The notes under the pieces: model-generated
Database searches by the model: none
Seen by the model: the letters and a program-made list of their open reading frames with translations, nothing else
Told to the model about the DNA's origin: nothing
In this document: positions 11,924 through 48,333 of the stretch, in pieces
Layout: each line of letters opens with the position of its first letter
Position numbering within the stretch: position 1 is the stretch's first letter
Program-made: the position numbers and the translations under genes
Source of the DNA: an uncultured Phascolarctobacterium sp.
Lineage (GTDB): Bacteria; Bacillota; Negativicutes; Acidaminococcales; Acidaminococcaceae
Reading direction: 5' to 3'
NCBI GenBank assembly: GCA_947629685.1
Contig: CANREP010000013.1
Location: 1-50,587 of the forward strand
Length of the DNA: 50,587 nucleotides

Positions 11924-11940
11924 TAGTATATACTATTTAT
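11924..11940. promoter_or_regulatory. CcpN-like operator candidate upstream of dcuB
   Basis: TAGTATATACTATTTAT, containing the perfect 12-bp palindrome TAGTATATACTA (11924-11935). The same 17 bases occur at 26016-26032 inside the promoter of the ccpN-like gene, and an 11-of-12 version lies over the -10 of ppsA. Here it sits 24 bases upstream of the dcuB -35, so the mode of action may differ. Confidence 0.5.
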
Positions 11941-16753: not shown

Positions 16754-18097
16754 TTATTTTTTCTGTTCTTGCAGATGCTGCTGATATTTTTTAGTTTCAG
16801 CCACGATAACGCCGGTCAACGCCAACAGCGCAATCAAGTTAGGAATAGCCATGAGGCCGTTGACGATATCTGCCAGCACCCAGATTTCTTCCAGTTTCAG
16901 GAAAGGACCGCAGGCAATGAGGCCGATGAAGATCAGACGGTACGGAAGGATGGCCTTAACGCCCAGCAGATATTCCACGCAACGTTCGCCGTAGTAGTTC
17001 CAACCCAGGATAGTGGTAAACGCAAACAGTACCAGGCCAATCATCAAAAGCAGGCTGCCAAAAGTCGGGAAGCCCATTACAAAGGCCTGCTCTGTCATAG
17101 CCGCGCCGTTCAAATCGCCCTGCCATACACCGGTAACTACCAGGGTAAGGCCGGTCAGGGTGCAGATAATGATGGTATCGATAAAGGTACCAGTCATGGA
17201 AATCAGGCCCTGCTCAGCAGGCCATTTGGTTTTAGCCGCAGCAGCGACGATAGGAGCACTGCCGAGACCGGATTCATTGGAGAATACGCCGCGGGCAACA
17301 CCGTTGCGCATCGCCATCATAACGGTAGCACCCAGGAAACCGCCGGTTGCAGCAGTAGGATTAAAAGCAGATTCGATAATCAGCGCTACAGCGCCGGGAA
17401 CTTTATCAGCAAAAGTAAGCAGGATACCGATGGTAGTAACAAAATATAACAACGCCATCAGAGGAACGACTTTGCCTGCAACACGAGCAATGGATTTCAG
17501 ACCGCCGATAGTTACAACAGCTACCAGTACGGTCAGCGCAATGCCGGTGTAAATTACGGGGATACCTGCAGAAATCCTGGTGATTTCTACGATAGAGTTA
17601 ACCTGGGCAAAAGTACCGATGCCGAAGTACGCGCACAAAACGCCGAATACTGCAAAAATAACCGCCAAAGGTTTATATTTTTTGCCAAGCCCGTTTTCAA
17701 TATAGTACATCGGGCCGCCGGAAATAGCTCCGTTAGCGTCGACAGTGCGGTATTTTACTGCCAGCAGACATTCCGCATACTTGGTAGCCATACCGAAAAA
17801 AGCGGCCATCCACATCCAGAAGATAGCGCCCGGGCCGCCAGCTTTGACTGCCGTAGCCACGCCTACGATATTGCCGGTACCGACGGTTGCAGCCAGCGCC
17901 GTGCATAAGGCTCTAAAACTGTTGACATCGCCGCTGCCTTCATTCTTAGCACTGAAAATCAGCTTCAGCGCATCTCCCAGCTTAAAAACCTGCAGTAAAT
18001 TTAATCTGATGGTCAGCCAGATGCCGGTACCTACCAGCAGCGCCAAAAGCGGCGGTCCCCAAACAAAAGTATCAATTTGATTCAATAATTCCAGCAT
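16754..18097 (-). CDS. AGCS-family glycine/alanine:sodium symporter under a glycine riboswitch
   Basis: A 447-residue sodium:amino-acid symporter of the AGCS family with about eleven helices. Family motifs are FRALCTALAATVGTGNIVGVA, GGPMYYIENGLG, FSNESGLGSAPI (the AGCS signature) and GWNYYGERC. It imports alanine or glycine into the cytoplasm. A tandem glycine riboswitch with a terminator lies directly upstream, so glycine is the likely inducer and substrate. It is about 70 percent alike, by eye, to the next symporter upstream, which lacks the riboswitch. AGAGGGAG precedes the ATG. Confidence 0.93.
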   Translation of the reverse strand: MLELLNQIDTFVWGPPLLALLVGTGIWLTIRLNLLQVFKLGDALKLIFSAKNEGSGDVNSFRALCTALAATVGTGNIVGVATAVKAGGPGAIFWMWMAAFFGMATKYAECLLAVKYRTVDANGAISGGPMYYIENGLGKKYKPLAVIFAVFGVLCAYFGIGTFAQVNSIVEITRISAGIPVIYTGIALTVLVAVVTIGGLKSIARVAGKVVPLMALLYFVTTIGILLTFADKVPGAVALIIESAFNPTAATGGFLGATVMMAMRNGVARGVFSNESGLGSAPIVAAAAKTKWPAEQGLISMTGTFIDTIIICTLTGLTLVVTGVWQGDLNGAAMTEQAFVMGFPTFGSLLLMIGLVLFAFTTILGWNYYGERCVEYLLGVKAILPYRLIFIGLIACGPFLKLEEIWVLADIVNGLMAIPNLIALLALTGVIVAETKKYQQHLQEQKK

Positions 18098-18133
18098 TGT
18101 TAAACTCCCTCTCCATTGTATTTTTAAGTAAAT

Positions 18134-18164
18134 AAAAAACCAGAGTATCCAAAATACTCTGGTT
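18134..18164 (-). terminator. Riboswitch expression-platform terminator
   Basis: On the minus strand AACCAGAGTAT / ATACTCTGGTT with a 5-base loop and TTTTTT. It falls between the glycine aptamers and the symporter ribosome site, so glycine binding probably prevents its formation (an ON switch, as known for this class). Confidence 0.85.
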
Positions 18165-18178
18165 TGAGGTCAATGAAG

Positions 18179-18202: not shown

Positions 18203-18210
18203 ATACAGCT

Positions 18211-18378
18211 TTGTCTCTGTCCACTGGCCTGAGAGATAAGGATGTTGCCATCCGTGCACCTTCGGCGCCCATTTAAGGGACTCTCCAGAGTTGTGTCCAT
18301 ATACGGTTCCGCCTGTTCAAGCACCTGAGAGTTTTGCTCCTTCGGTAGGTAAAAACCTTCTCCCATATACATCATCCA
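18211..18378 (-). promoter_or_regulatory. Tandem glycine riboswitch (gcvT class)
   Basis: Two glycine aptamers in series on the minus strand. Aptamer 1 begins near 18378 (ATATGGGAGAAGG, then CCGAAGGAGCAAA and ACTCTCAGG). Aptamer 2 begins ACTCTGGAGAG, then GCGCCGAAGGTGCACGG and ATCTCTCAGGCCAGTGGACAGAG. The conserved CTCTCAGG and CCGAAGG elements are present twice. The downstream gene is an AGCS symporter, a known target for this class, not the gcv glycine-cleavage genes. Confidence 0.95.
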
Positions 18379-24504: not shown

Positions 24505-25338
24505 TCAGTCTTTAATGCCGTGGCGTTCTTTGTTCTTGCGCACGTATTCCAGGATAATACCTGCAGTTTCTTCAATAGCGCGGTTGGAAACATTGATAAT
24601 CGGACAATGTACTCGGCGCATGATGCCTTTGGCATATTCCAGTTCGTCGTTAATACGTTTCATATCCGCATACACGGCGGTATCGGACAAGCCCATGGTT
24701 TTCAATCGTTCGCTGCGGATCTCGTTCAGCTTGAACGGATCGATTAAAAGGCCGACAATCTTATAAGGCGGCACCTGGAACAGCTCATCGGGCGGTTGCA
24801 GCTCCGGCACCAGCGGTACGTTGGCAACCTTGACCTTTTTATGTGCCAGATACATACTGAGCGGGGTCTTAGAAGTACGGGATACGCCGATAATGACGAT
24901 GTCCGCTTTTAAGAGGCCCAGCGGATTTTTGCCGTCGTCATACTTAACGGCAAATTCCACCGCTTCCACACGTTTAAAGTATTCATGGTCCAGAGAGTGG
25001 ATAAGGCCTGCCTGATTTTTCGGGAAAAGGCCGGTAGTTTTTTCTACGGCTTTCAGCATGGGGCCGAGTACGTCCACTACCTGCAAATCAAGTTCCATAG
25101 CTTTATCTGCCATATGCTCGCGCAGTTCCGGCGATACGATAGTATAGCAGATAATGGCATTGGCTGCGGCAGCCTCATCTAAAATTTTATCAATCTGTTC
25201 CTTATCTTTGACATAGGGAACGCGAATAACGTCAAATTTTTCCTCTACAAACTGACTGGTGGTAGCCTTTACCACCGACTCTGCTGTTTCGCCGATAGAG
25301 TCGGAAACAGCATAGATTACAGGATTAACTTTATTTAT
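24505..25338 (-). CDS. ppsR: PEP synthase regulatory kinase/pyrophosphorylase (DUF299), non-standard start
   Basis: A DUF299 protein that switches PEP synthase (or PPDK) off by ADP-dependent phosphorylation of a Thr next to the catalytic His and back on by Pi-dependent removal. The P-loop is GVSRTSKTP. The conserved family start VIYAVSDSIGETAESV is encoded from about 25323, but no ATG, GTG or TTG lies between it and an in-frame TAG upstream. The first standard codon is a GTG at 25275, inside the conserved block. Possible starts are ATA 25338 (8 bases after AAAGGGGG) or ATT 25344; ATA gives 277 residues. It follows the ccpN-like gene, whose stop overlaps it. Its target, ppsA, is in this window. 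Confidence 0.85.
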   Translation of the reverse strand: MNKVNPVIYAVSDSIGETAESVVKATTSQFVEEKFDVIRVPYVKDKEQIDKILDEAAAANAIICYTIVSPELREHMADKAMELDLQVVDVLGPMLKAVEKTTGLFPKNQAGLIHSLDHEYFKRVEAVEFAVKYDDGKNPLGLLKADIVIIGVSRTSKTPLSMYLAHKKVKVANVPLVPELQPPDELFQVPPYKIVGLLIDPFKLNEIRSERLKTMGLSDTAVYADMKRINDELEYAKGIMRRVHCPIINVSNRAIEETAGIILEYVRKNKERHGIKD

Positions 25339-25990
25339 GATAATTACCCCCTTTACCCTCTGCCAGATCTACCAGCAGCCTGGTAAAATTAGTCTTGGTG
25401 ATACGTCCCACCACTTCATAGCTGCGTTTGCCGTCATCTACGGTCCTGACTACGGGCAGGCTGTCGATTTCATTATCGATAACCTTTCTGGCAGCAGCTG
25501 CCACTGATTCTTCTGGATGCGCCACGATGATTTTAGACAGCGGCGTCATGACCATGACGACAGGAATGTCGTGCAGATCCGCATTATTGATAGCGGCTTT
25601 TAAAAGGTCTTTGCGGGAAACCACACCTGCCAGAAGCCCCGCCTCATCTACTACGAAGATTGTACCCACGTCCTCCAGGAACATGGTTACAACAGCTTCA
25701 TAGGCGCTCTTTTCCTGGCTGATAGCCACCGGTACCGACTGCAGATCTTTGACGCAGATGCCGGAGATTTCCTCCATCAGCATTCCCAGCGTGTTCTTGC
25801 CTGTATAAAAATAGCCAACCTTGGGCCGGGCATCCAAGATGCCCCCCATCACCAAAATGGCCAAATCACTGCGCAGGGCTGCTCTGGTAACACTCAAACG
25901 CTCTGCAATATGCTCACCGGTAATAGGCCCTTCCAGACGCACAATTTCAGCAATACGTTTTTGTCTGTTACTTAAAGATATGATCTTCAC
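25331..25990 (-). CDS. CcpN-like transcriptional regulator (HTH plus two CBS domains)
   Basis: A 219-residue regulator: a DeoR/HTH-11-type winged helix (about 1-60; SNRQKRIAEIV, GPITGEHIAERLSVTRAALRSDLAIL) followed by two CBS domains (about 80-205; EDVGTIFVVDEAGLLAGVVSRKDLL and NEIDSLPVV). It matches B. subtilis CcpN along its length (212 residues there); CcpN represses gluconeogenic genes and senses ATP/ADP. GTG 25990 is chosen because family N-termini begin just there; a longer reading frame crosses the promoter. ppsR follows as in Bacillus, where the pair is conserved. A palindrome in its promoter suggests autorepression. Confidence 0.88.
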   Translation of the reverse strand: MKIISLSNRQKRIAEIVRLEGPITGEHIAERLSVTRAALRSDLAILVMGGILDARPKVGYFYTGKNTLGMLMEEISGICVKDLQSVPVAISQEKSAYEAVVTMFLEDVGTIFVVDEAGLLAGVVSRKDLLKAAINNADLHDIPVVMVMTPLSKIIVAHPEESVAAAARKVIDNEIDSLPVVRTVDDGKRSYEVVGRITKTNFTRLLVDLAEGKGGNYHK

Positions 25991-26007
25991 ACCCTTTCTA
26001 AACTGCT

Positions 26008-26037
26008 TATATAAGTAGTATATACTATTTATGACAA
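26008..26037 (-). promoter_or_regulatory. ccpN-like gene promoter with embedded palindrome
   Basis: On the minus strand -35 TTGTCA (26037-26032), 18-base spacer, -10 TATATA (26013-26008). The perfect palindrome TAGTATATACTA (26016-26027) fills the spacer, a classic repressor position, and 17 bases (26016-26032) are identical to the site upstream of dcuB. Confidence 0.55.
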
Positions 26038-47820: not shown

Positions 47821-47857
47821 TAGTGTATACTATATCACATTTACGATGCTCATTCAA
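47821..47857 (-). promoter_or_regulatory. ppsA promoter with a CcpN-like palindrome over the -10
   Basis: On the minus strand TTGAAT (47857-47852), 17-base spacer, TATAGT (47834-47829). The plus-strand TAGTGTATACTA (47821-47832) matches the dcuB and ccpN-gene palindrome at 11 of 12 bases and covers most of the -10 and the start. The remaining gap to 48014 holds no gene. Confidence 0.6.
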
Positions 47858-48013
47858 GATATTTTACGCAAAAACTGCAATAAAATTTACAATTTTTATT
47901 TTGGACGCACGCCGTTATCTTTATATATTTTCTACCAAAATTATAATTTTCCTGCCGAGGCAGCATACGGCAAGGCATTAAGCACAGAAATATCTTACCG
48001 GCACAGCTTTGTC

Positions 48014-48041
48014 TTGCCAATAGCAGCAAAAATGATAAAAT
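48014..48041 (+). promoter_or_regulatory. Promoter of the small unknown gene
   Basis: TTGCCA (48014-48019), 16-base spacer, TAAAAT (48036-48041). Confidence 0.55.
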
Positions 48042-48068
48042 ATTAGTAGTAATTAAGGAGGAAGAAAC

Positions 48069-48296
48069 ATGATGCCTGCTATAAATATCTGCTCCGCACC
48101 AAGAGACTGCTGCGTGCCGCTCTTCTTTGACGACGGCCACGGCGACTACAACCGCAGCTACGAAAGAGATTACGACGATTTTGACTATGCGGATTATTCC
48201 ACCGACCACCGGGACAATAATTTCCGCAACTACGAAAAAAAGCGCCGCAAAACTAACAAAGAAATCATCGAAGATATGCTCAAACGCTGGGACTAA
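48069..48296 (+). CDS. Unrecognised small protein, acidic Tyr/Asp-rich centre with a basic tail
   Basis: A 75-residue protein that I do not recognise. Residues 1-20 contain two cysteines in APRDCCVP; residues 22-52 are rich in Asp, Tyr and Asn (DYDDFDYADYSTD); residues 53-75 are basic and helical (EKKRRKTNKEIIEDMLKRW). It has a strong AAGGAGG 7 bases before the ATG, a promoter and a terminator, so it is likely a real monocistronic gene. No signal peptide or membrane helix. It lies between divergent ppsA and convergent pepT. Possibly a nucleic-acid or metal-binding peptide; function unknown. Confidence 0.7.
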   Translation: MMPAINICSAPRDCCVPLFFDDGHGDYNRSYERDYDDFDYADYSTDHRDNNFRNYEKKRRKTNKEIIEDMLKRWD

Positions 48297-48297
48297 G

Positions 48298-48333
48298 AAA
48301 AAACCTGTAAAGAAATTTCTTTACAGGTTTTTT
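48298..48333. terminator. Bidirectional terminator between the small gene and pepT
   Basis: Stem AAAAAACCTGTAAAGA / TCTTTACAGGTTTTTT with a 4-base loop; T tract on both strands. Confidence 0.92.

Follow-up and report, generated by a model that had tools for sequence, protein, structure and literature searches.

A putative AUA start codon of the PEP synthase regulator gene ppsR, conserved in Acidaminococcaceae

Results

Genes and features of the ccpN-ppsR locus

The window, that is, the whole stretch of 50,587 nt that was analysed, belongs to a draft assembly of 44 contigs whose closest named relatives are Phascolarctobacterium, and it carries ccpN, ppsR and a gene for PEP synthase (Table 1). 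The PpsR protein covers the whole profile of PF03618, N-terminal block included (E 1.5e-103), and passes NF003742 (333.9 bits, cut-off 225), while it is filed only under this broader subfamily because it misses the cut-off of the narrow proteobacterial-type equivalog NF049928 (153.8 bits, cut-off 350). Its conserved N-terminal block aligns with the solved maize PDRP 5D0N. CcpN, with an HTH and two CBS domains, scores 288 bits against the equivalog NF053704 (cut-off 260) and is assigned to it. PpsR switches PEP synthase on and off and works catalytically, as is established for the family. A protein of the PEP synthase/PPDK type is encoded in the same window and, being the only PF01326 protein in the genome, the PEP synthase at 47774-45384 is the likely target of PpsR.

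Five exact copies of the palindrome TAGTATAYACTA are present in the genome. Three are in the window, at 11924-11935 (C4-dicarboxylate transporter of the DcuA/DcuB family), 26016-26027 (ccpN-ppsR) and 47821-47832 (PEP synthase), and two further sites (G000:C11:22163, L286; G000:C21:19095, L290) stand before genes for acetate kinase and pyruvate:ferredoxin oxidoreductase (PFOR). These sites are candidate CcpN operators and could delimit a CcpN regulon of the pyruvate node. Elsewhere in the window, a glycine riboswitch aptamer (18207-18298, minus strand) immediately precedes a gene for a sodium:alanine symporter (16757-18169).

Table 1 Features of the ccpN-ppsR locus and of the PEP synthase gene (window coordinates).
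Feature	Position	Strand	Basis or remark
ppsR read from ATA (277 aa), encoding a PEP synthase regulatory kinase/phosphorylase (DUF299)	24505..25338	-	PF03618, NF003742
GTG, earliest usual in-frame start codon of ppsR; rejected as start	25273..25275	-	
ATA, inferred start codon of ppsR	25336..25338	-	column is ATA in 40/50 distinct family regions, compensation when lost
AAAGGGGG, Shine-Dalgarno (SD) site of ppsR, 8 nt before ATA	25347..25354	-	sequence and spacing survey
ccpN coding sequence from inferred start ATA 25981-25979; 8-nt overlap with ppsR	25331..25981	-	NF053704; start column comparison
AAAGGGTGTGA, SD-like region of ccpN, contains GTG 25990	25987..25997	-	
TAGTATATACTA, palindrome upstream of ccpN-ppsR, candidate CcpN operator	26016..26027	.	
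PEP synthase gene, sole PF01326 protein of the genome	45384..47774	-	preceded by palindrome TAGTATACACTA, 47821-47832

Start regions of ppsR and ccpN

The open reading frame of ppsR on the minus strand (25368-24505) begins right behind TAG 25371-25369 and reaches its stop at 24505, and its first ATG, GTG or TTG is GTG 25275, which lies within the conserved N-terminal block. Reading the frame back to the TAG bears out the preliminary description, according to which no usual start precedes the conserved N-terminus. The same description is right that the block is encoded in frame, but its position has to be moved from 25323-25276, as the V of VIYAVSDS is GTA 25320, Pro precedes it at 25323 and the 16-residue block ends at 25273. 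Start-like codons of the frame downstream of the SD site are ATT 25344, ATC 25341 and ATA 25338; ATC 25368, also in frame, sits 5' of it. The SD site does stand 8 nt before ATA, as had been described, and the gene combines the lack of a usual start before the conserved N-terminus with a near-cognate codon at SD distance.

The upstream gene ends with TAA 25333-25331. GTG 25990 could be called as the start of ccpN, but it is an unlikely start because it lies inside the SD-like AAAGGGTGTGA, and comparison favours ATA 25981. Across 156 distinct loci the start column of ccpN holds ATA, ATT or ATC in 85 and ATG, GTG or TTG in the rest. Changes of the ccpN and ppsR starts are associated at a raw p of 0.008, with only 4 independent pairs on well-supported branches in a phylogeny-aware test. 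Of the 47 long frames without overlap in the window, only two that could be assigned to a family, ppsR and ccpN, have an SD pointing to nothing but ATA, ATT or ATC. One more frame flagged as startless, 47853-48320, matches no Pfam family; it seems spurious and is probably on the wrong strand.

Conservation of the start codon in the family

Fifty distinct ppsR upstream regions were aligned from the family, taken as Phascolarctobacterium, Acidaminococcus and kin. The start column is ATA in 40 of them, and 39 of these 40 have no ATG, GTG or TTG in the column or in the next two codons. Among the ten other regions, ATG occupies the column in three and the codon upstream in one (L023), GTG or TTG is the following codon in five, and one has a lone ATC. 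Since nine of the ten regions that lost ATA have a usual start in the column or an adjoining codon, a usual start evidently replaces ATA. On a tree of 130 PpsR proteins the near-cognate state spans the family, interrupted by separate changes to ATG (L078; L022/L023), GTG (L010-L012) and TTG (L019/L020). In four loci (L058, L060, L080, L087) an in-frame stop lies 14-15 codons before the conserved PpsR block, and none of these loci shows an ATG, GTG or TTG at SD distance between the two.

In relatives the ppsR codon is therefore either retained or exchanged for a usual start in the same or an adjoining position, and this comparison with close relatives, which the preliminary description had proposed, upholds its reading of a rare-codon start, the distance to the SD being almost constant at 8 nt. 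The alignments give strong support to AUA 25338 as the start codon of ppsR, and translation almost certainly begins there and not on an AUG. Reinitiation from the ccpN stop at 25331, also suggested earlier, is possible in the window but not necessary, as ATA or ATT persists at ppsR where no gene overlaps, where ccpN lies up to 161 nt off and where no ccpN was found upstream.

Survey of the phylum

The survey was widened to Negativicutes and a sample of the phylum, with 184 distinct ppsR upstream regions, all counts being of distinct sequences rather than of independent events. ATG, GTG or TTG at SD distance was found in 93 regions, only ATA, ATT or ATC in 88, and neither in 3. Since roughly half the ppsR genes sampled rely on ATG, GTG or TTG, a weak start is not essential to the role of PpsR. 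Outside the family AUA, AUU and AUC interchange at the start. The spacing from SD to ATA is 8 nt in 47 of 55 sites scored as ATA, a tightness that is partly built in as the scorer favours the candidate nearest 8 nt, while at usual starts it scatters from 3 to 12 nt. The length from SD to conserved block falls into a single class modulo 3 in 71 of the 88 near-cognate sites. At Succiniclasticum-type loci the scorer took ATC; ATA is one codon on, in the column that turned into ATG in L077. In one related genome group (L226-L228, L231) the SD of ppsR is followed by ATTGTG, which places ATT 8 nt and GTG 11 nt away.

Two other genes served as controls. With a closely similar method, an SD-positioned ATG, GTG or TTG was found in all 56 distinct dnaG loci, compared to 96 of 177 for ppsR (Fisher p about 1e-12, relatedness ignored), and a 160-aa neighbour gene had an SD-positioned usual start in 23 of 24.

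Other genes of the genome with a probable AUA start

infC also appears to start on ATA in this genome (L268), and the 29 family loci read, this genome included (L256-L285), have ATA, or ATT in five; mostly a stop lies 10 codons before the conserved N-terminus, and the SD is TGGAGGTGA or similar. Given these infC starts, AUA should be usable for initiation in this organism. Scanning the genome for GGAGG-N7-9-ATA returned 89 sites, fewer than a reversed control pattern, and the sites whose frames were examined gave one convincing further gene besides infC. This gene, era, looks AUA-initiated (GGAGGTTGATTAACATA; G000:C16:12144-12160, minus strand; L413, L434), and among the 30 family loci read (including L435-L463) 18 have ATA or ATT and 12 have ATG at SD distance. 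An unusual initiator tRNA reading AUA was considered and set aside, as Met-type genes were seen with the CAT anticodon only; no tRNA with a UAU anticodon was among the tRNAs found in this draft, which may miss some.

Discussion

Reading ATA 25338 as the start of ppsR has to be weighed against other explanations of the same region. ATC 25341 and ATT 25344 are in frame, 5 and 2 nt from the SD core respectively, but relatives differ freely in these two columns and keep ATA, and usual starts, where present, fall at the ATA column or the adjoining codon, which makes initiation at either codon improbable. GTG 25275 is the earliest usual start codon in frame, the one that a gene finder would choose, and the preliminary description had entertained it; no SD lies ahead of it, however, and the resulting protein would lack the conserved N-terminal block and hence VIYAVSDSIGETAES, although this block is kept in homologues, opens the PF03618 profile and can be aligned to the maize protein, so that we regard such a start as very improbable. 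Even less credence can be given to a +1 frameshift late in ccpN that would yield a CcpN-PpsR fusion. The two genes do overlap in different frames, with the SD-like AAAGGGGG before the ccpN stop, but the ATA or ATT site is the same in relatives with a distant ccpN or none found upstream. A sequencing error hiding an ATG, as had been considered, or a decayed ppsR could be suspected in a draft assembly, but the frame is intact and the same site recurs in dozens of independent genomes, including the isolates P. faecium DSM 14760, Acidaminococcus fermentans and Sporomusa ovata DSM 2662, which excludes a sequencing error and leaves this the least credible of all explanations.

The main rival concerns function rather than position. 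Perhaps AUA is the start codon but has no regulatory role, a drift that is tolerated because the strong SD, together with coupling to ccpN in many genomes, yields enough of a protein needed in catalytic amounts. Frequent switches between near-cognate and usual starts, and the interchange of AUA, AUU and AUC outside the family, fit such neutrality. Against it, ATA is kept in four fifths of the family regions though ATG is one mutation away, which argues for selection in its favour, whatever the cause, and in S. aureus the AUA of ccpN limits output and responds to the medium (PMC13009471). Neutrality is considered unlikely, if clearly the strongest of the alternatives.

We consider it probable that PpsR is throttled, and perhaps tied to IF3, by weak initiation on AUA that a strong SD at a precise distance rescues. 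AUA 25338 would be read by ordinary fMet-tRNA, which the strong SD 8 nt upstream would make possible, and the weak codon would cap PpsR synthesis, by analogy with ccpN and infC. Both cistrons of ccpN-ppsR, repressor and PEP synthase regulator alike, would then be throttled at initiation, and in genomes with the overlap the shared 8 nt may add coupling of ppsR to ccpN. On the same analogy IF3, growth state or nutrients may modulate initiation of ppsR. Conservation of the odd start suggests that PpsR output is held low, and scarcity of PpsR through its rare start is plausible. Little PpsR may suffice, given its catalytic action and the single PF01326 protein in the genome, and an excess could shut PEP synthase off.

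If so, start-codon stringency, exerted by IF3, could be linked to the switch to gluconeogenesis. A broader and rather doubtful proposal is that infC, era, ccpN and ppsR make up a small regulon of AUA (or AUU) starts in Acidaminococcaceae whose synthesis is set jointly by IF3 activity and the state of the 30S pool, which if true would tie ribosome status to the PEP/pyruvate switch. Regardless of mechanism, a rare class of start is conserved family-wide and recurs across the phylum in a metabolic regulator, and gene finders limited to ATG, GTG and TTG would truncate PpsR, here at GTG 25275. A search of the literature on start codons of DUF299/yqfL returned nothing relevant.

Comparison with known systems

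In E. coli, pcnB starts on AUU, a rare start limiting a protein that is harmful in excess. It resembles ppsR in using a rare start as a limiter but is an unrelated gene, and to our knowledge its AUU start is not a phylum-wide trait. One further study, going by its title, reportedly deals with a gene-specific preference for non-AUG starts. Closer in kind is infC, encoding IF3, with AUU in E. coli and AUA in S. aureus: as in ppsR, a near-cognate start has been kept in evolution, and in the genome studied here both genes have ATA. IF3 regulates itself, whereas PpsR is a metabolic regulator for which we know of no role in initiation.

The closest likeness is to ccpN of S. aureus and B. subtilis, the upstream gene of the same operon, with a conserved AUA start and a strong SD at a fixed distance. 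In S. aureus, ribosome profiling showed initiation on AUA, the codon and the SD being conserved in B. subtilis, and reporters with AUA gave about 10% (RPMI) to 30% (BHI) of the output of the AUG version (PMC13009471). No mention of yqfL/ppsR occurs in the main text of that study (Kohl et al. 2026, PMC13009471). While the start of ccpN in S. aureus was shown by profiling and reporters, that of ppsR is proposed from sequence comparison; here the second cistron appears to share this kind of start, and the survey reaches Negativicutes and clostridial families. The known AUA case of ccpN would thereby extend to both overlapping cistrons of the ccpN-ppsR operon, and ppsR appears as a further case in a known class of near-cognate-start genes, set apart by its breadth and by the involvement of both genes of the operon.
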